From a virus, in the IMG/VR virus record IMGVR_UViG_3300050821_012676, positions 1 to 21,512 of that record: a DNA stretch of 21,512 nt; one strand, 5' to 3'. The notes under the pieces were generated by a model. The model saw nothing but the letters and a program-made list of their open reading frames with translations, was not told where the DNA came from and did no database searches. Shown here piece after piece: positions 5,837-16,996 of this stretch. The first letter of the stretch is position 1. Every line of letters starts with the position of its first letter. The position numbers and the translations under genes are program-made.

Positions 5837-8587
5837 ATGTCTTCTGTAGTATACGGTATCGGTGGTTTAATAAAAGTCGCTCCTCCAGCACTGACAGGAG
5901 GCGGCGCTCCTCCTGCTAGTTTCGCTGGAATATTAGGGCAGCAATATTTTGATACGTCCCAAAGTCCTTCGGTAGAATATATTTATAACGGTTCTACTTG
6001 GGTAGCAGGCGGAAATAACCCAGCTACTCCGACAGCTCCTGGGATTGTGACCTTGTCAACTTATGCTCAGTTGTCTAACGGTACATCTCCCTCAGGTGCA
6101 TACTCACCTCTTGCAAATGATGTATACACATATGTCAACTCCGTAGCGATTGGGGGATCTCCCGTTGCAACAACAGTAACTCAGGGTATCAGCTTCCTAG
6201 CCACAAACGCTCAAGCAGTGGCTGGCGTTGTATCTACAAACACAGCTTTGATCCCTTCTAACCTTCCTTCTGTATTCGCATCCCCTCCATCCATTGGAAG
6301 CACGCTGCCTGCTCCAGGATCCTTCACGACACTGGCAGCTTCTGGCTTATCATCTCTTAGTGGAAGTGCGACTATTCTTTCTGCTGGAACTGCGATAAAC
6401 ATCGGTAGTGATGCTTCTGCGGACGCAATAAATCTAGGAACTGGAGCAGCTGCAAGAACGATCACAGTGGGTAACGTGACGGGAGCGACTGGCCTTCTAT
6501 TCAAAACTGGCACAGGTAACTTCTCACTAGATGGTGTCGCTGGCTCAACATATACAGTTGGGGCGTCAACAACTACGGGCACAATGACAATCGGGGGAAC
6601 AGCACAAACTGGAACTATTACTCTGGGATCATCTTCAGGTACTAACATTGTGGCAATAGGTGCAGGAGCTGGAGCTACCACTGTTAATATTGCAGGTGGA
6701 ATAACTGGAAATACAGTGTCCATCGGTAACGGTGCAAATACTAGCTCTCAGGTAATCAACATTGCAGATGGCGCATCAGCAGCAAACAGTACAGTCAATA
6801 TCTTGTCAGGAAATGGAAGTGCTGGAACACAAACGCTGAACGTTCTTACTGGAACTAGAGCGGGTGCTCTTAACCTGGCTACTGGCGCAGCTGCTAACGT
6901 GACGATCATCGGGTCAACAACTGGCGCGGCATCAATCAGTATGCTTGTTGGGACTGGTAACTTTTCTCTGGATGGCGCGGCTACCTCAACATATGCAGTT
7001 GGGGCTTCTACGACTACTGGGACGATTACTATCGGTGGTACTGCACAGACTGGAAACTTGGTATTAGGTTCCTCTTCTGGAACGAACGCAGTTCTTATCA
7101 TGAACGGTTCTGGAGCAGGTACACTTAGCCTTGGCGTCGTACAAACAGCTGGTGCGATCAACATGGGTACAGCGATGACAACTGGTACAATTACAGTTGG
7201 CGGTACAGGTGCTCAGACTGGAATCATAGCTATTGCCCCAGGAACAGGTGCTCAAACGATCAATATCGGGCATTCTACAGGTGGTAAGACGATCAATATC
7301 GGAGACGGTGCTGGCGCAAACGTATTGGCAATCGGTTCAAATAACGGGGCTAGCTCTCTTGCTCTGAAGGTTGGAACAGGTAACTTCACATTAGATGGAA
7401 ACGCAGCATCAACATACGCAGTAGGAGCTTCTACTACCACAGGAACAATAACTATCGGTGGTACTGCTCAAACAGGAACCCTGACAGTTGGCTCATCCTC
7501 TGGTACTAATACCATAGCAATAGGCGCTGGAGCTGGTGCTACTGATCTTCAACTAGTGAATGCTCAGCTTGCGGGCTCATGTGAAATCGGTACGGCAATG
7601 ACAACAGGAACTATCCAAGTGGGTGGTACTGGAGGTCATACTGGAACAATGTCTATAGCTCCAGGTACTGGCGCTCAGACACTGAACATCGCAAACTCAA
7701 CAGGCGGTAAAACAGTCGCGATTGCAACAGGTGCGGGTGCGAACGTAGTTTCACTGGGATCCTCTAACGGCGCGAGCTCTCTGACGCTCAAAGCTGGTAC
7801 AGGTAACTTCAGCTTGGATGGTGCAGCAACTACTACCTATGCAGTTGGAGCCTCAACAACAACAGGAACAATCACCGTTGGAGGGACTGCACAAACTGGC
7901 ACACTCACCATAGGTTCCTCTTCAGGCACTAACATCATAGCAATAGGTGCTGGTTCTGGAGCCACTGACCTTCAGTTAGTCAACGTACAGACAGCAGGAT
8001 CTGTTGAGATGGGTACAGCGATGACAACTGGTACAATCCAAATCGGAGGTACTGGAGCTCACACAGGTACGATCTCAATTGCCCCAGGTACTGGAGCCCA
8101 AACTCTTGCAATAGCTAACTCAACTGGTGTTAAGACTATCAACTTTGCTACAGGGGCAGCTGCCAACGTTCTGACCATCGGATCTACAACAGCTTCTTGT
8201 GCAGTGACTCTGCAAGCTGGATCAGGCGCAACAGGGCTGAAGTTCTCATCTGCTGGTAACGTACAGATGGTTCCTGCGACATCAAGCACCGCTGCTGCAA
8301 CGACCTCTGTCACAATGAACAATAGGGTATGTTGCGCTACTTGGACAGGCTTCACAACAGGTGCTGCCTCTACTCTTGATTTGACGATCACAAACAGCAC
8401 GATCTTGACTACCTCATGCATCTTGGGAGCTGTGTCTAACCTGAACGCAAGCACAAACAATGCTCAGATGACATTGGTTGGCATGACTCAAGCTGCTGGT
8501 TCTGTGATCATGCACTTGAAGAACAACGGAGCTGGCGCACTGGGAGCTGGGGATAACATTCTAACAAATATCTGGGTTCTATCTTAA
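5837..8587 (+). CDS. Repetitive tail-fibre-type protein (916 aa)
   Basis: A strong GGAGGT precedes the ATG. Residues 25-70 carry a motif common at the N-terminus of uncultured phage fibres (GILGQQYFDTS, then EYIYNGSTW). Residues about 110-135 contain TVTQGISFLATNAQAVAG. From residue 225 to about 800 the protein consists of Gly/Thr/Ala/Ile repeats, with GTGNFSLDG at residues 225, 372, 513 and 654 and a partial fifth unit near 793. Each unit contains YAVGASTTTGTITIGGTAQ and GSSSGTN, giving a spacing of 141-147 residues. The last 90 residues differ and are probably the distal tip. The composition predicts an elongated beta-structured trimer. It heads the fibre operon and very likely contributes to host recognition. 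The family is recognised only in general terms. Confidence 0.8.
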   Translation: MSSVVYGIGGLIKVAPPALTGGGAPPASFAGILGQQYFDTSQSPSVEYIYNGSTWVAGGNNPATPTAPGIVTLSTYAQLSNGTSPSGAYSPLANDVYTYVNSVAIGGSPVATTVTQGISFLATNAQAVAGVVSTNTALIPSNLPSVFASPPSIGSTLPAPGSFTTLAASGLSSLSGSATILSAGTAINIGSDASADAINLGTGAAARTITVGNVTGATGLLFKTGTGNFSLDGVAGSTYTVGASTTTGTMTIGGTAQTGTITLGSSSGTNIVAIGAGAGATTVNIAGGITGNTVSIGNGANTSSQVINIADGASAANSTVNILSGNGSAGTQTLNVLTGTRAGALNLATGAAANVTIIGSTTGAASISMLVGTGNFSLDGAATSTYAVGASTTTGTITIGGTAQTGNLVLGSSSGTNAVLIMNGSGAGTLSLGVVQTAGAINMGTAMTTGTITVGGTGAQTGIIAIAPGTGAQTINIGHSTGGKTINIGDGAGANVLAIGSNNGASSLALKVGTGNFTLDGNAASTYAVGASTTTGTITIGGTAQTGTLTVGSSSGTNTIAIGAGAGATDLQLVNAQLAGSCEIGTAMTTGTIQVGGTGGHTGTMSIAPGTGAQTLNIANSTGGKTVAIATGAGANVVSLGSSNGASSLTLKAGTGNFSLDGAATTTYAVGASTTTGTITVGGTAQTGTLTIGSSSGTNIIAIGAGSGATDLQLVNVQTAGSVEMGTAMTTGTIQIGGTGAHTGTISIAPGTGAQTLAIANSTGVKTINFATGAAANVLTIGSTTASCAVTLQAGSGATGLKFSSAGNVQMVPATSSTAAATTSVTMNNRVCCATWTGFTTGAASTLDLTITNSTILTTSCILGAVSNLNASTNNAQMTLVGMTQAAGSVIMHLKNNGAGALGAGDNILTNIWVLS
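6509..8204 (+). repeat. Tandem coding repeats inside the 916-aa fibre gene
   Basis: Four units begin at 6509, 6950, 7373 and 7796, with spacings of 441, 423 and 423 bp, all multiples of three. The peptides are nearly identical in their central part, but the DNA differs at many third codon positions (for example, GGT ACT GCA versus GGA ACA GCA for the same residues). The duplications are therefore old and kept by selection on the protein, not recent copy errors. Confidence 0.85.
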
Positions 8588-8878: not shown

Positions 8879-9202
8879 ATGTCTACAGGCGCAAGAGTCG
8901 GATTTGATGTTGAGAGAGTTCTAGCTGGTCCCTTTTCAGGGATAGCTCAGACCATCGGCAGTGCGATCACAAAAAACCCTGTGATTATCGTTTTTGATAA
9001 CCAATCTACTGTTAGCGTTGCTCTTTCTGTAGATGGAACAAACACATTTAAAACGTTGGTCTCAGGAGAGGCTTTCGTCCTAGATTTGAGAGCAAACATT
9101 GGTAAGGCTCCAAATTATACAGTGGACTTAGGTACTCAATTCTTTGGGACGGGCACTGGTGGAACGGGCAATATGACAGTTGCTATTTTCTACTCATTTT
9201 AA
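8879..9202 (+). CDS. Small virion or decoration-type protein (107 aa)
   Basis: The start follows the upstream TAA directly and has GAGGA as ribosome binding site. The central core IIVFDNQSTVSVALSVDGT with SGEAFVLDLRAN and GTQFFGTG is a recurring pattern in small structural proteins of uncultured tailed phages, compatible with a beta-sandwich. The C-terminus (NMTVAIFYSF) ends in a strand. It lies inside the fibre operon. Structural assignment is by resemblance and context, and the exact site in the particle is unknown. Confidence 0.65.
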   Translation: MSTGARVGFDVERVLAGPFSGIAQTIGSAITKNPVIIVFDNQSTVSVALSVDGTNTFKTLVSGEAFVLDLRANIGKAPNYTVDLGTQFFGTGTGGTGNMTVAIFYSF

Positions 9203-12405: not shown

Positions 12406-12599
12406 CACCAGTAACTCACATTTGTAAGGTCGTGGGGCATATAACACTTATATGGCACCCACTTACCTGTAAATCCTACGTATTGTGCTATGCAGTAAAG
12501 GTAGGTTGCAGATGCCCTCTTATCGATATACTGAACCAGAACTGGGATACTTTCTTCTGGGAGCCTATCATTAGTCCTGACCCATACATTCGAAGCCAC
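12387..12599 (-). CDS. DUF551-like protein (70 aa), GTG start
   Basis: The N-terminus WVRTNDRLPEESIPVLVQYI matches the conserved DUF551 opening (W-x-x-x-x-x-RLP-x-x-x-x-x-VLV). The family's usual HWMPLP end is replaced by VSYWCYFDEL. The GTG start has AAAGG upstream and follows the 29-residue gene's TAG with one base between, so translation is probably coupled. DUF551 proteins are frequent small phage and prophage products of unknown function. The gene ends inside the opposing lipoprotein gene. Confidence 0.65.
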   Translation of the reverse strand: MASNVWVRTNDRLPEESIPVLVQYIDKRASATYLYCIAQYVGFTGKWVPYKCYMPHDLTNVSYWCYFDEL

Positions 12600-12600
12600 T

Positions 12601-12690
12601 CTATACCTTTCCTCTGATGATCTTTACAAATCCATCTATGATAACAACAAAAATGAATAGGTTAAAGACCACCCAAAATGAGTCACTCAT
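12601..12690 (-). CDS. Single-span membrane mini-protein (29 aa)
   Basis: A good ribosome binding site (GGAGGAA) precedes the ATG by six bases. The product is one transmembrane helix (FWVVFNLFIFVVIIDGFV) with a basic C-terminus (KIIRGKV). It is transcribed between the 18-residue gene and the DUF551-like gene with no useful gaps, as in a minus-strand operon. Many phages encode such peptides; the function is unknown. Confidence 0.5.
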   Translation of the reverse strand: MSDSFWVVFNLFIFVVIIDGFVKIIRGKV

Positions 12691-12693
12691 TTT

Positions 12694-12750
12694 CTATTCC
12701 TCCAATCCAATGATAGCTATCAACATCAATATAAACTGACCCCAGTCCAT
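12694..12750 (-). CDS. Possible 18-aa hydrophobic peptide
   Basis: AAGGA at the end of the 252-residue gene lies eight bases before the ATG. The peptide is MDWGQFILMLIAIIGLEE, a short hydrophobic segment with acidic end residues. Its end carries the ribosome binding site of the following 29-residue gene. It may be a real membrane peptide or only a leader that couples translation of its neighbours. Confidence 0.35.
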   Translation of the reverse strand: MDWGQFILMLIAIIGLEE

Positions 12751-12753
12751 AAC

Positions 12754-13512
12754 TTATTCCTTGTTGGCTCTGACCCAAGCATCTGTAATATAATCACTGA
12801 TTGCCTTAGCGTCATCTTTCATGTGTTCCCAGTTCTCTTGCGTTAGATCTGAGAGGAAGGAAACCGCGTGATCCATGGCATTGCCATAGTCTCCAGCTGC
12901 TGCATATCCAGCGGTTAATAGAGCTTCCGTTGTTTGCGTAGACAGGTGCTCTGCATTCCTTTCTCTCCAAGTATCTCGGTAAGCTTCCCATGCGCTGTCA
13001 TTATTTTCAAATATTCCAAGTACACGTCCGTGTGTTTTAAACACAAAATTAGCTCTTTCTAAACCTACCACTGAACGGGAGCTTGCAGCGGAAAATCCTT
13101 TACATGTTGTTGGCAGAACAGATTCTGCAACAGATACATCTCTAGAGATTCTTGGTGCTGGACCTGCGACATCTCTAGATCTACCTTCGGTCAGGGCAAG
13201 AGTGGCTCTTCGTTCTACTGCATCTATTGGGGGTATGAATGGGTTTCTTAAAAGAAAGGCTCTCACGGGGGGGATATTCATAACCGTATCTGCAACGGTT
13301 CTAACAAAACTGATCTGGCATCTTTGGAAAAACCCAAACAGTCCTGAAAAGGTGAAATCTAAAAAGTGCCCACCTCCGACGATAACGTTATTTACTCTAT
13401 CAAAATTATTAGCGACAACTGCTACTCCAGTTGCTGCCATTGCTACTGCTGCTGTTTGTGGCGTGAAATGACCACTTCCGACTATGACTCTTCCTACACT
13501 ATCTAAGCTCAT
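12754..13512 (-). CDS. Unidentified 252-aa protein with internal N-terminal repeat
   Basis: Residues about 5-14 (SVGRVIVGSGHF) and about 39-50 (RVNNVIVGGGHF) repeat the same motif, separated by an Ala/Val-rich hydrophobic stretch (AAVAMAATGVAVVANN). The middle is arginine-rich and low in structure (residues 95-135). The last 100 residues are helical and charged (DSAWEAYRDTWRERNAEH). No known catalytic motif is seen. It is the first gene of a minus-strand group that includes membrane peptides and the DUF551-like gene, and its start uses the AGGAATACAAACA leader. It could be a membrane-associated moron-type protein. The function is not known. Confidence 0.6.
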   Translation of the reverse strand: MSLDSVGRVIVGSGHFTPQTAAVAMAATGVAVVANNFDRVNNVIVGGGHFLDFTFSGLFGFFQRCQISFVRTVADTVMNIPPVRAFLLRNPFIPPIDAVERRATLALTEGRSRDVAGPAPRISRDVSVAESVLPTTCKGFSAASSRSVVGLERANFVFKTHGRVLGIFENNDSAWEAYRDTWRERNAEHLSTQTTEALLTAGYAAAGDYGNAMDHAVSFLSDLTQENWEHMKDDAKAISDYITDAWVRANKE

Positions 13513-13525
13513 TGTTTGTATTCCT
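13513..13525 (-). promoter_or_regulatory. Start-codon leader AGGAATACAAACA of the 252-aa gene
   Basis: On the minus strand AGGAATACAAACA runs directly into the ATG at 13512. It includes the Shine-Dalgarno AGGA with a nine-base spacer. The same 13 bases precede the ATG at 19263 on the plus strand and occur again at 16059-16071. Sharing beyond the Shine-Dalgarno suggests a common translational or transcriptional control element. Confidence 0.5.
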
Positions 13526-13643
13526 GTTGTAGATTGCTTGTGTGCAAGTTTATCTTACATATTCACGATATTTTCAAGAATGCTAAATATATTTTACATA
13601 ATTACATAAGTAGAGTATATTTTAATCCCCTTACAAGGTATTT

Positions 13644-13736
13644 ATGGAATTTACGATGACAGCCGCGACCTGCGCTATTTTGTTCTCAATAGTCACTTAT
13701 ATGATCCTTTGGGTGATCATAAGAAGAGAATTCTGA
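13644..13736 (+). CDS. Single-span membrane mini-protein (30 aa)
   Basis: AAGGT lies upstream of the ATG. The product MEFTMTAATCAILFSIVTYM continues with ILWVII and ends RREF: one membrane helix followed by a positive cytoplasmic tail. It is transcribed divergently from the 252-residue gene across an AT-rich 131-bp region (13513-13643) that probably contains both promoters. The function is unknown. Confidence 0.45.
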   Translation: MEFTMTAATCAILFSIVTYMILWVIIRREF

Positions 13737-13746
13737 GTGGCTAGAC

Positions 13747-13875
13747 TCAACACAAATTAGAGCAACTCATGGCACTTGTTACGTTGGAGTAACTGTTGGA
13801 AAGCGCCCATGCAACCAAAAACACGAATAGTCCAAAAACGAGGGCTATAAAAAATATTAACCAATCCACTTTCAT
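13747..13875 (-). CDS. Single-span membrane mini-protein (42 aa), coupled to zinc-ribbon gene
   Basis: GGAGGAG lies eight bases before the ATG, and the ATG overlaps the upstream TGA (ATGA). The N-terminal 25 residues form a membrane helix (WLIFFIALVFGLFVFLVAWA); the tail is polar (SNSYSNVTSAMS). The strong ribosome binding site and overlap with the replication-operon gene make it likely to be translated. The role is unknown. Confidence 0.55.
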   Translation of the reverse strand: MKVDWLIFFIALVFGLFVFLVAWALSNSYSNVTSAMSCSNLC

Positions 13876-14090
13876 AAGCTTATCTCCTCCCAGATCATTT
13901 TAACGACTTTTTCCATAGCTGGATCTTGAAAATCTCCAAACTTCAGAAGCATATCTATCTTGACTTTTGTGTACTGGTTGGGATTTCTCCTGACTGCACG
14001 AATACAGTCTGGGCATAACTCTAGTTCTAGATTTTTCTCATCCCACCTTCGATCACAAAATATGCAACGTTCCCAAACAACTTCGCTCAT
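13872..14090 (-). CDS. Zinc-ribbon protein of the replication operon (72 aa)
   Basis: Two CxxC pairs, CIFC (residues 9-12) and CPDC (residues 26-29), would bind one zinc ion. The rest is helical and charged (FQDPAMEKVVKMIWEE). Its ATG overlaps the initiator's TGA (ATGA), so it is translated with the replication initiator. A DNA- or protein-binding accessory role in replication is inferred from the operon. No closer family is recognised. Confidence 0.6.
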   Translation of the reverse strand: MSEVVWERCIFCDRRWDEKNLELELCPDCIRAVRRNPNQYTKVKIDMLLKFGDFQDPAMEKVVKMIWEEISL

Positions 14091-15007
14091 ATGTCTAATG
14101 GTATATTCATTTTTCTAAATCTTGAATGTATTTTTTCTTTGAATCCAGGCTCTCCAACTTTGTAACTGTTTTCTCCATGAACCCTTGGAAATTCAACGTA
14201 ATCATGCCCTAAAATCATGTCACCCTTTGAGATAAGGTGTTTGTATGTCTTTAGCTTGTTAATCAATTCTAGGTCGGTTGTAACGCGAATTTTGGGCATC
14301 TTAGAGTTGTCTTCCCTTAACCATTTGCGTAAGACTGCTGCGTGACAAGAATATTGTTTAAATTTCTTTTCGTTGATGTCAGCATACTCATCCAACCGTT
14401 CCAACATGTCCGCCACCCTTTCCTTTCCAAAGTCTGACACTAGCTTCTCATGCTTATCAGATTTCATTTTGATGCGAGTCATTCCTGAGATCTTGGATTT
14501 GAATTTAAATTCAGACGAAGCGGACGGGCGTGGGGGGACAGGCGAAGCCTGGGGGCTTGCCCCCTCTCTCTCTTCTTCTTTAGTATATGGTTTAGTATCT
14601 GGTATTGGTGTTGCGTTTTCGCAATATCCATGTTGCGTTTTCGCAATCTCCATATTGCACTTTTGCAATATGTCTATGGAAGGTACGAATTTTTCCTCGT
14701 TAGAGAATGCATACCAAATCGTTCGATCGTAGTGTTTGACGTTGAAGTTAGCTTTCTTCAAAACTCCACGTTTAATTAATTTTGATATAATACGTAAAAC
14801 TTTAAACTTGTTGAGGTAGGGAAAGTTGGCGGCGATCTCATCCAATGTTTGGTAGGTCCAAGTTCTGCCGTCCAAAAAGTGTCGGTTAAGTTTTTTGTTT
14901 ATCCTGACCCAATGTTGGAAATGATGGATGATTATGGATTCTTCTATCCCGTACTCTGCTGCTAGGTGGATATCGAAGCTGTGGTGGTGAGAATATGTGA
15001 TTGTCAT
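14087..15007 (-). CDS. Replication initiator / replisome organiser (winged-helix N-terminus, 306 aa)
   Basis: Residues 1-105 resemble winged-helix replication proteins of phages and plasmids: FDIHLAAEYGIEESIIIHHF, then DGRTWTYQTLDEIAANFPYL, then RGVLKK and YDRTIWYA. Residues 110-170 form a variable linker (PDTKPYTKEE). Residues 180-250 carry a helical region ending in CHAAVLRKWLRED, like the C-terminal DnaD-type motif of replisome organisers. AGGA lies six bases before the ATG. Three DNA iterons lie within the linker-coding part (14609-14674), as the lambda origin lies within O. The protein probably binds these and recruits the host helicase, but the exact helicase partner is not visible. Confidence 0.75.
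   Translation of the reverse strand: MTITYSHHHSFDIHLAAEYGIEESIIIHHFQHWVRINKKLNRHFLDGRTWTYQTLDEIAANFPYLNKFKVLRIISKLIKRGVLKKANFNVKHYDRTIWYAFSNEEKFVPSIDILQKCNMEIAKTQHGYCENATPIPDTKPYTKEEEREGASPQASPVPPRPSASSEFKFKSKISGMTRIKMKSDKHEKLVSDFGKERVADMLERLDEYADINEKKFKQYSCHAAVLRKWLREDNSKMPKIRVTTDLELINKLKTYKHLISKGDMILGHDYVEFPRVHGENSYKVGEPGFKEKIHSRFRKMNIPLDI
14609..14674. repeat. Three tandem 22-bp iterons, candidate replication origin inside the initiator gene
   Basis: Units start at 14609, 14631 and 14653. The first two agree at 21 of 22 bases and the third is diverged. Each contains an inverted repeat, TTGCGTTTTCGCAA in units one and two and ATTGCACTTTTGCAAT in unit three. The spacing of 22 bp is about two helical turns, so bound proteins would face the same side. 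It is not a multiple of three, so each unit is read in a different frame and encodes a different peptide (LQKCN, IAKTQ, YCENA). Selection must therefore act on the DNA. A pyrimidine-rich and AT-rich stretch (14560-14608) lies beside it and may be the unwinding region. Confidence 0.75.
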
Positions 15008-15032
15008 TCTGTGTCCTAGGTGATTATTTTCC

Positions 15033-15169
15033 CTGGGACCAACGTTAAACTTTCATTTTACTTTTTCTAAATGACTGAGAGTTGTACTATTTTGTCACTT
15101 TCTTTATACTTCCGGGAAGAAGTTAAGTTTTTGTAAAATGTGGGTTCATTGTTGGTCCCAGAGTTTTTT
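15033..15169 (+). ncRNA. Candidate structured non-coding RNA divergent from the initiator gene
   Basis: CTGGGACCAAC at 15033-15043 pairs perfectly with GTTGGTCCCAG at 15151-15161. Further in, CATTTTAC at 15054-15061 pairs perfectly with GTAAAATG at 15133-15140, with extra A-T and wobble pairs between, so the two stems nest. A local hairpin (ACTTC/GAAGT) sits near 15113-15128. TTTTTT follows the closing stem at 15164-15169. A possible promoter has TTGTCA at 15001 and TATTTT at 15025, which would place the start near 15035, at the first G of the stem. The region lacks any convincing gene. The opposite strand would be the 5' leader of the initiator, so a leader structure is the alternative. Confidence 0.5.
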
Positions 15170-15178
15170 AGTGGTTTA

Positions 15179-15210
15179 AGAGCGGTTGAAGAACCGCTCT
15201 CTTTTTTTTT
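15179..15210 (+). terminator. Intrinsic terminator
   Basis: AGAGCGGTT and AACCGCTCT form a perfect 9-bp stem with a GAAG tetraloop, followed by C and a run of nine T. It ends transcripts coming from the candidate RNA on the plus strand. If some pass through, they would reach the genes at 15273, so it could also serve as an attenuator. Confidence 0.85.
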
Positions 15211-15272
15211 AAAAGCGCGTTTCTTTTTTCTTCAAAATAGTAATTTCTCTTTTCTTTAACCTCAAGTGGTAA

Positions 15273-15878
15273 ATGGGGAAAAAGGATTTCCAAGATATTG
15301 AGCCTCTGTGGTATTCTGCTATGAGAAGGGACAACAAACATAGGTCATTTTCGATGCAAATTAAACTGTTAAAGATTAGCGTCAGCATCAAAAAAATCGA
15401 TAGATTTTTCGTAGATTTTGAGTTTCCTGAGTTAAGGATAATCCTAAAAGGTATTCGCTATAACAGGAACACTCATAGAGCGTTTTTACCCTTCGTAGTC
15501 ACGGAAGATAAGGGGGTATATTCTCCTTTTTGCTTTATGGATTCTGAGACGATGAAGGAAGTTATCAGTACAATGTTGTCCCTCATAAAAGAAGAGAAGT
15601 TACCAGAGTTAACGGAAGGGCAGCGTGAGTACATTAAAAGAATTCGAGAAGAGGAAGTCCAGCGGCGAAAGCGAAAACTTCGAGGACATGTGGGAAGAGC
15701 ACCTTCAAAACCTAAAGAGGATAAAGGCGCTAATAAGGCATTACAGGCAAACAGCAAAAAAGAAACTCCCGCTACAGTACGGCCATGTCCAGATCCTAAG
15801 GGAGGTCGTGAAAATGCGTTTCTTAGCACCTTCGGAGCAGGGTTTACTGAAATACCTTTGCCAAGAAGAAAACCTTGA
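15273..15878 (+). CDS. Uncharacterised protein (201 aa)
   Basis: Residues about 30-105 look like a compact alpha/beta domain (SIKKIDRFFVDFEFPELRII, then FMDSETMKEVISTMLSLI). Residues 115-140 are a strongly basic helix. The last 60 residues are low in complexity (PSKPKEDKGANKALQ) and overlap a second gene in the +1 frame. The start is uncertain: the ATG at 15273 has only a weak ribosome binding site, and ATGs at 15321 and 15354 are alternatives. It lies beside the replication region, so an early DNA-metabolism role is possible, but the family is not recognised. Confidence 0.55.
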   Translation: MGKKDFQDIEPLWYSAMRRDNKHRSFSMQIKLLKISVSIKKIDRFFVDFEFPELRIILKGIRYNRNTHRAFLPFVVTEDKGVYSPFCFMDSETMKEVISTMLSLIKEEKLPELTEGQREYIKRIREEEVQRRKRKLRGHVGRAPSKPKEDKGANKALQANSKKETPATVRPCPDPKGGRENAFLSTFGAGFTEIPLPRRKP

Positions 15879-16026
15879 TTATACCTTGAAGTCCAAGTTC
15901 AATTTGTACGGTAAGGGGAATAAAGAGGTGCAGTTCAACATGTTTCCAGAGATGTTCACATTCGAATTCCCCGCTTCTTCTGTAGAACTGGGGGAGGATG
16001 TGGTGGCTGGTAGATGTAGGGCTTAA
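15625..16026 (+). CDS. Uncharacterised protein overlapping the previous gene out of frame (133 aa)
   Basis: The GTG at 15625 has GGAAGG a few bases before it. Other starts are ATG 15688 and ATG 15814, the last with an excellent GGGAGGT and giving only 70 residues. The N-terminal half is helical and basic (LKRIKALIRHYRQTAKKK), and the C-terminal half has a mixed pattern (LYGKGNKEVQFNMF). It overlaps the 201-residue frame by 254 bp. Either the two genes truly overlap, the second one is short (from 15814), or a +1 frameshift joins the good parts of both. The function is unknown. Confidence 0.5.
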   Translation: MSTLKEFEKRKSSGESENFEDMWEEHLQNLKRIKALIRHYRQTAKKKLPLQYGHVQILREVVKMRFLAPSEQGLLKYLCQEENLDYTLKSKFNLYGKGNKEVQFNMFPEMFTFEFPASSVELGEDVVAGRCRA

Positions 16027-16054
16027 GAAAAAGGGTGATTTTTAGGTCACCCTT
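16027..16054 (-). terminator. Intrinsic terminator of the recombination operon
   Basis: Read on the minus strand, AAGGGTGA and TCACCCTT form an 8-bp stem with an 8-base loop, followed by a T-run (TTTTTC). It lies 88 bp past the exonuclease stop. On the plus strand the hairpin is followed by AAAAGG, so it works mainly for the minus-strand operon. Confidence 0.7.
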
Positions 16055-16056
16055 AA

Positions 16057-16071
16057 AAGGAATACAAACAT
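16057..16071 (+). promoter_or_regulatory. Orphan copy of the AAGGAATACAAACAT leader
   Basis: These 15 bases are identical to those leading into the ATG at 19263, but here ATA follows where ATG would be. The frame from there stays open for over 50 codons into the exonuclease gene on the other strand, with no ATG near the leader. The 70 bases beyond it (16072-16141) contain an imperfect hairpin near 16088-16113. It may be a lost gene start or the 5' part of a small RNA. Confidence 0.4.
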
Positions 16072-16141
16072 AGGAAAACCCAGAAGATCCGTGCGGTGTA
16101 GGAGTCACGCGGAAAGTCAGGTGAAATACGGTCGTATCATT

Positions 16142-16996
16142 TCATATTTTAACTATTTGGTCAACTCTCCAACTCATAGTGGATTTTTTCCTATATGGTT
16201 CAAGATCCATTTCTTTGAGCTCGGGAATGGCTGAGTAGTCTACCTTTCCCTTTGATTGTATTTGCGTTAACTTTAGGTAGCGGCCTTTCGTTGTGCCAGA
16301 GCATTTTGAAATTAAATCTTTTTTGAGTGCCTCTATCTGCTCATCCAAGAATTCTCGTTGAAGAAGAAGTTTGGATAATTTCTCCTCTTTCTCTAGAAAG
16401 TCGCTATCATTCGTTTCAAATATATCTTTTTCAGAAGCCTCTGGAAGTGTATGGGACTTTAATAGGGTCCTAAATTCGTTCGCTGCAACCTTCATTTTTT
16501 CGATGTATTCTTCATCTCTATGTACTGTCACAGTGCAGCACTGGACAGGGCAGTGTGGGTTGTAACTGAAATAATAGGCTACCTTTAGATCTGTAACTGC
16601 CATCTGCCATTGAATTTGAGGATAGTAATGTTTAGGGACTACATCTTTTAGAGCTATTTCATGATCCTCAGCCCCTGGGCACTTGATCTCGACTAGAATC
16701 TCGTCTTCGCTAATACCATCTAGACTAGCTGCCATCCATCCATCTTTAGTAACAAATTTAGGAACGACGAATGTGTCCATTTCTTTCTCAAACAGCCGTC
16801 TAGCTTCTTCCTCCATATCGAGTCCACGTTTCATTACATAAGACTGCTCACGTTTAATGGAGGTCGTCTTTTCCTTGTACAACTGAAGGGGTGTAGTCCA
16901 CTTAGATACACCCATGATAACGCACATGTCAGTTGCTGTGATGTATTTCTTACGTATCTCTAACCATTCATCTGAACCGATGATTACGCTATCCAT
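16142..16996 (-). CDS. YqaJ-type viral recombinase exonuclease (284 aa)
   Basis: This enzyme family digests one strand of double-stranded DNA ends to prepare them for annealing, like lambda Exo. Visible motifs are SDEWLEIRKKYITATD near the N-terminus, RGLDMEEEARRLFE (residues 57-70), and the catalytic acid in AASLDGI (D93). The E103-x-K105 pair follows in LVEIKCP, then HYYPQIQWQM with Q127 and Q129. This is the PD-(D/E)XK nuclease order of YqaJ proteins. The C-terminal 80 residues are a helical region with a coiled-coil stretch (FLEKEEKLSKLLLQREFLDE). AGG lies six bases before the ATG. The gene overlaps the ERF gene by 8 bp and ends the operon. Confidence 0.85.
   Translation of the reverse strand: MDSVIIGSDEWLEIRKKYITATDMCVIMGVSKWTTPLQLYKEKTTSIKREQSYVMKRGLDMEEEARRLFEKEMDTFVVPKFVTKDGWMAASLDGISEDEILVEIKCPGAEDHEIALKDVVPKHYYPQIQWQMAVTDLKVAYYFSYNPHCPVQCCTVTVHRDEEYIEKMKVAANEFRTLLKSHTLPEASEKDIFETNDSDFLEKEEKLSKLLLQREFLDEQIEALKKDLISKCSGTTKGRYLKLTQIQSKGKVDYSAIPELKEMDLEPYRKKSTMSWRVDQIVKI

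Follow-up and report, generated by a model that had tools for sequence, protein, structure and literature searches.

A predicted plasmid-style antisense-RNA switch on the leader of a phage replication initiator

Next to the replication initiator gene of a 21.5-kb virus record (here called the window, 21,512 nucleotides in full) lies a short stretch of DNA with a long inverted repeat and a terminator, which raises the question of what RNA is made there and what that RNA acts upon. The original prediction saw a structured plus-strand RNA, closed by the inverted repeat, that could regulate the initiator, act as a decoy or attenuate the genes at 15273. Our computations lead to another answer, namely that the region is a plasmid-style antisense-RNA switch on a phage replication initiator, and we put the probability of this predicted role at about 0.7. 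What we observe by computation are the arms and the terminator, the energetics of two alternative folds, and the recurrence of all these in relatives; we infer that both RNAs are transcribed, where each begins and ends, that they pair in the cell and that copy number is controlled.

The perfect 11-bp stem described originally (15033-15043 with 15151-15161, the gap separating these arms being 107) and the perfect 8-bp stem nested within it are both present, as are the T-run after the segment (15164-15169) and a strong terminator downstream, whose stem at 15179-15200 runs into a single C and then nine T. Both stems are portions of 29-nt arms that are 79% complementary. Arms of this length with 23 matches occurred in none of 150 shuffles of 14900-15300 (best 17), and a perfect 11-bp repeat occurred in two of 150, while the fold of the 129-nt segment (-40.9 kcal/mol, z -5.3) was equalled by none of 200 shuffles. 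Rfam gave no match in the window above the gathering threshold, no phage DNA resembling 14980-15275 was found, and two scans of genome contigs returned no relative. Scans with the initiator recovered one virus that is identical across the region (296 bases) and, once near copies had been removed, 26 diverged loci (27 with the window), the initiator proteins of 25 aligned relatives being 28-39% identical to that of the window. For covariation, these diverged loci are too dissimilar to be aligned. The upstream DNA of several relatives has the same layout in different letters, that is, a long-range inverted repeat and then a terminator facing away from the initiator; the stem and terminator feature is real and recurrent. 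Left out before counting were L002, L005 and L006 (same virus), L007 and L008 (the loci of L003 and L004), L014, L017, L020 and L035 (taken as near copies of L015, L018, L019 and L036) and L032 (too little upstream DNA), and L028, a near copy of L027, was excluded from the promoter, fixed-geometry and terminator counts.

Of 26 loci, 17 have a strict antisense-strand terminator whose end lies 100-280 nt upstream of the initiator, where 40 sets of shuffles gave a mean of 0.2 and never more than 2; on the mRNA strand, two of the 26 have one anywhere within 0-280 nt. Given this recurrence of place and orientation, the earlier proposal of a short plus-strand RNA that ends at the terminator and acts on the initiator is supported as a prediction. 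The start of the RNA appears to lie elsewhere than proposed. In a sigma-70-like promoter scoring of 24 loci (L028, L022 and L024 excluded), antisense-strand promoters were enriched 50-75 and 75-100 nt upstream of the initiator ATG (z 5.3 and 3.6; sites of at least 6 bits in 13/24 and 9/24 loci, respectively), with no enrichment in the same 24 loci at 0-25 nt (z 0.5), where the start near 15001 had been placed. A promoter-like plus-strand site does exist at 15001-15030 (9 of 12 matches), but the relatives are not enriched at its position. Within the window, the inner site at 15082-15110 scores 7.96 bits against 7.38 for the outer one, a difference of 0.6 bit, and 13500-16200 holds seven such promoter-like sites where 5.6 are expected from shuffles; since the window scores are nearly equal, our choice of the inner promoter rests on the relatives.

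This promoter position falls inside the stem, which speaks against an RNA that consists of the closed 130-nt stem itself. Such an RNA, 130-190 nt long, started from the 15001 promoter and acting in trans or as a decoy, agrees with the strong fold (z -5.1 to -5.3), with the presence of the 15001-15030 site and with stem energies that do not disfavour the plus strand. In 13 of 16 loci the stem duplex has the greater stability when read in the antisense sense, roughly what composition alone predicts, and energy thus leaves undecided which strand the stem serves. We nevertheless consider the closed-stem RNA very unlikely, as relatives show no excess of promoters at the required position, the 5' arm of L003 has its partner past the terminator, and the pairing of an arm with the Shine-Dalgarno (SD) region described below is not predicted by it. 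By computation it is strongly suggested that an antisense RNA together with a two-state leader takes its place. A further role once proposed, as an attenuator for the genes at 15273, is not borne out, because only seven of the 27 loci have a divergent SD-bearing ORF of at least 60 aa that starts 120-480 nt away, and the window is not one of the seven. A decoy role is conceivable.

The preferred reading, an antisense-RNA switch on the initiator leader, would work as follows (features in Table 1). The initiator mRNA would begin near 15230 on the minus strand; mRNA-strand promoters are mildly enriched 175-225 nt upstream in relatives (z 1.5 and 1.8). In the leader alone, arm 1 (15163-15151) would pair with arm 2 (15043-15031) and leave the SD at 15017-15014 nearly free, which is the ON state. 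The promoter between the arms would give rise to a plus-strand RNA of about 15117-15209, ended by the terminator and fully complementary to the 5' half of the leader, including arm 1. With the antisense RNA on arm 1, arm 2 would fold onto the SD and translation would be turned OFF. As such, more phage copies would yield more antisense RNA, less initiator and hence less replication from the iterons inside the gene.

Table 1. Coordinates of observed and predicted features at the initiator locus of the window.
Feature	Position	Strand	Basis or remark
Replication initiator gene	14087-15007	-	phrog_11233, E 1.5e-25; phrog_6493 (DnaD-like), E 7e-13
Three palindromic iteron-like repeats, 22-bp spacing	14611-14671	.	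inside initiator gene, codons ~113-133
Predicted two-state leader of initiator mRNA	15008-15230	-	folding and SD-opening energies
SD region, OFF-state partner of arm 2	15009-15023	-	SD AGGA at 15014-15017
Arm 2 (anti-SD)	15031-15043	-	partner is arm 1 or SD region
Nested 8-bp stem	15054-15061, partner 15133-15140	.	sequence and leader fold
Promoter-like site of predicted antisense RNA	15082-15110	+	TTGTAC, 17 nt, TATACT; top-scoring plus-strand site in region
Predicted antisense (countertranscribed) RNA, ~92 nt, both ends predicted	15117-15209	+	between promoter-like site and terminator; layout enriched in relatives
Arm 1 (5' arm in mRNA), covered by predicted antisense RNA	15151-15163	-	13-bp helix with 15031-15043 in whole leader
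Intrinsic terminator and T-run of predicted antisense RNA	15178-15210	+	hairpin seen in sequence; recurs in relatives
Promoter-like site of initiator mRNA	15237-15265	-	TTGAGG, 17 nt, TACTAT; best minus-strand site, weak, 6.4 bits

The folding energies are consistent with this model. The region 14995-15230 folds with a z of -6.4 and 15117-15208 with a z of -3.2, and covering the upstream leader favours, by folding energy, a stem that sequesters the ribosome-binding site (RBS). The cost of opening the SD rises from 0.87 kcal/mol for the complete leader to 6.72 once the antisense-covered part is taken away, a gain of 5.85 kcal/mol that none of 40 shuffles reached (mean -0.33, sd 1.26) and that is robust to mRNA starts of 160-240 nt and antisense starts of 40-140 nt upstream. 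In the OFF state, 15013-15016 are paired with a probability of about 1.0 and 15017 is unpaired; in the ON state, two G of the SD are still paired (0.64-0.69) through a weak 2-bp helix with the coding region. An antisense RNA from the 15082-15110 promoter would leave arm 2 uncovered, whereas one from 15001-15030 would cover arm 2 too, with an OFF value of only about 3.2.

A locus was counted as carrying the switch if its SD-opening gain was at least 3 kcal/mol and at most 1 of 40 shuffles reached it. This was so in 17 of the 27 loci (16 of 26 without L028), the ten others being L015, L022-L026, L029, L031, L033 and L034, among which L025 has a gain of 2.1 with 0/40 shuffles. With one fixed geometry, 14 of the 26 initiators but just two of 119 control starts gave gains of at least 3 (Fisher 9e-11), the controls being other SD-bearing ORF starts of the window and the fetched loci, defined mechanically (at least 100 codons and an SD), so that not all of them are genuine genes. 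The switch idea arose from inspecting the window and the first six relatives, and without these seven loci the fixed geometry gives 7 of 19. Among the controls, the largest gains belong to the window starts at 8879 (3.3) and 20325 (2.7) and to a minus-strand start in L033 (4.3 kcal/mol), which are either more regulated leaders or chance. In 7 of the 16 positive loci, the minimum-energy fold of the whole leader keeps the SD hairpin, and the switch is therefore visible there only in the ensemble. On the initiator tree, the presence of the switch is unclustered (8 changes against a shuffled mean of 8.3), and the tree thus favours neither a single origin nor repeated gain.

Loci with the switch carry a strict terminator (11 of 16) not significantly more often than those without it (6 of 10; p 0.69), and because this association is missing we lowered our probability for the antisense switch from 0.72 to 0.70. 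The same lack of association, together with the fact that the energetics require the mRNA alone, would fit a two-state regulatory leader that responds to a protein, a ligand or temperature, or that depends on the order of co-transcriptional folding, with the plus-strand promoter and terminator serving another purpose. We regard such a regulator as rather unlikely, given that the loci show an excess of antisense-strand terminators (17/26) and promoters (z 5.3 and 3.6) at positions from which the resulting RNA would overlie arm 1 but spare arm 2, and that the staphylococcal plasmid pSK41, discussed below, has the complete set. The inverted arms might instead be DNA operators for a repressor of two divergent promoters, as the arms flank the antisense promoter and L037 has three near-copies of one arm. 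However, the arms inspected are long and individually non-palindromic, the pairing of arm 2 with the SD is unneeded by operators and yet recurs, and a search with find_repeats gave no additional arm copy within 13500-16200 of the window, which makes operators hardly credible. The L037 copies lie in tandem on the antisense strand, 98-146 nt upstream of the ATG; the arm that they nearly repeat is the complement of the promoter-side arm, and to have the target of the antisense RNA multiplied in this way is unusual.

A later scan provided a second set of loci, taken from the best 80 of 181 relatives, of which 49 lie on contigs new to the analysis. L120 (no start) and L096 and L118 (near a contig end) were excluded, and the 46 evaluable loci were split into 8 with free upstream DNA and 38 with an ORF that ends between 120 nt upstream of and 25 nt into the initiator gene. 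The antisense-strand terminator was found at 5 of the 8 free-upstream and 1 of the 38 gene-upstream loci (p 0.0002) and the SD-opening gain at 2 of the 8 (a third has 2.88) and 2 of the 38 (p 0.13), p-values that are optimistic as the 38 still include near copies. The terminators replicate in this second set, and the switch is without significance there.

The OOP RNA of phage lambda is located near the replication genes, and the predicted RNA resembles it in being a short phage antisense RNA by such genes. OOP is described as antisense to the cII mRNA and as acting with RNase III (PMC12197685), and the comparison made in the original prediction falls short in that the RNA predicted here opposes the leader of the initiator itself; an SD-sequestering leader is absent from the description of OOP in that source. 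An OOP-like arrangement opposite a cII-type gene was considered and rejected, there being no ORF of at least 60 aa opposite 15117-15208. Extrachromosomal mycobacterial prophages are reported to require a non-coding RNA for replication, but the RNA-based ones are described as using an initiator RNA without a RepA homologue (PMC7157519), in contrast to the protein initiator that is the predicted target here. Among the matches listed, titles and abstract beginnings in the open-licence literature contain no phage initiator under antisense control, and the main text of a 2025 review of phage small RNAs has neither 'copy number' nor 'initiator' (PMC12197685).

The closest known arrangement is found in pSK41, a staphylococcal RepA_N plasmid. 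Its RNAI, about 83 nt long, is described as being antisense to the rep leader some 100 nt upstream and as inducing an RBS-sequestering stem-loop with no attenuation of transcription; the plasmid origin lies inside rep, and the N and C domains of Rep are said to be DnaD-like (PMC5703833). Used as a positive control in the same calculation, pSK41 rep showed the same SD signature as the phage leader, the cost of SD opening rising from 2.0-2.7 to 12.2 kcal/mol for leaders of 200-250 nt with the antisense start 60-110 nt upstream (10.0 at 120). At a fixed 190 nt the gain was only 1.7, yet 0/40 shuffles reached it. Origin repeats within the initiator gene, predicted in the phage, are a further likeness, and the difference is that the present locus belongs to a phage and not to a plasmid. 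According to the same source, such RNA systems are apparently missing from RepA_N plasmids of other genera, while in pT181 (RNAI/repC) and pIP501 (RNAIII/repR) an antisense RNA on the rep leader governs a stem-loop before the start codon, in pT181 with a competing pre-emptor pairing (PMC5703833). These two systems share with the predicted phage system an antisense RNA on the rep leader that decides whether a stem-loop forms, but their induced stem is a transcription terminator. Attenuation of the pT181/pIP501 type was rejected for the window, where no strict mRNA-strand terminator lies upstream of the initiator.

The likeness to pSK41 extends in part to the initiator protein, whose predicted structure (mean pLDDT 75.5) joins a winged-helix N domain to a helical C domain through a disordered linker. 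Its three best structural matches in VIA-align are 4pql, 4pt7 and 5kbj (Z 10.2, 10.0 and 9.2; rmsd 4.3-5.1), by sequence the N domains of pSK41-like RepA initiators, although the top Z of 10.2 is only 1.1 above unrelated winged helices (next unrelated 9.1), and no DnaD structure was among the VIA-align matches listed. Foldseek with the initiator model found nothing at E<=0.001, a search of solved structures with a profile built from 26 initiators nothing below E 0.09, and comparison with pSK41 Rep no detectable sequence similarity (BLASTP E 0.35; hhalign probability 0.2); RepA_N was not among the Pfam matches at E<=1 of the seven members scanned. As modelled, the phage locus probably works like that of pSK41, which is a likeness of mechanism and not a demonstrated membership in RepA_N.

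The palindromic repeats within the initiator gene probably mark a candidate origin, judging from the sequence, and in the window they sit where the linker begins. The window and, with L028 aside, 15 of 26 relatives have their best in-gene repeat at a period of 20-22 bp around codons 106-159; this repeat beats every one of 20 shuffles in the window and in 9 of the 15. Unexpectedly, eight of these nine relatives with clear iterons are no-switch loci, and clear iterons occur at 8 of the 10 loci that lack the switch but 2 of the 16 that have it (p 0.001, post hoc), as if repeat-based and RNA-based copy control were alternatives replacing each other.

With regard to lifestyle, among 30 records a tyrosine integrase turned up in one and ParA (PF13614) in none, and among 25 a serine recombinase in one; these records include some near copies and may be incomplete. 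Here we tentatively speculate, with some doubt, that these diverse uncultured tailed phages, nearly all of whose records lack a recognisable integrase and all of whose records lack the one ParA family looked for, might be plasmid-like persisting phages with the copy-number logic of plasmids and an 'immunity type' set by RNA sequence. Since the antisense sequence varies between phages, the RNA would double in such phages as a factor of incompatibility and superinfection immunity, and the antisense RNA of a resident would silence the initiator of an incoming close relative. If the antisense switch is true, a control circuit of staphylococcal plasmids would run the initiator of a diverse phage group, and the layout common to both, an initiator with an internal origin, an antisense RNA and an SD-hiding leader, would link phage and plasmid replicons. 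Copy control, and perhaps superinfection immunity too, would then have a testable basis in RNA, and there would be a sequence signature for finding such phages in metagenomes. A relative of the initiator is also encoded at 12526-13341, 46 nt behind another gene, in a 41-kb Piscirickettsia salmonis plasmid record (L122, NZ_CP039233.1), which carries ParA together with phage terminase, portal, capsid and tail genes and is likely a phage-plasmid.

Two further observations concern other ORFs of the window. The plus-strand ORFs 15273-15878 and 15625-16026 overlap each other and adjoin the predicted RNA, and neither has a family match; for 15273-15878, no PHROGs or Pfam family was found at the cut-offs used, and no relative beyond the identical virus. 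In addition, a 916-aa ORF at 5837-8587 contains many imperfect repeats of the type TTTGTITIGGTAQTG and is perhaps a putative tail fibre or spike.
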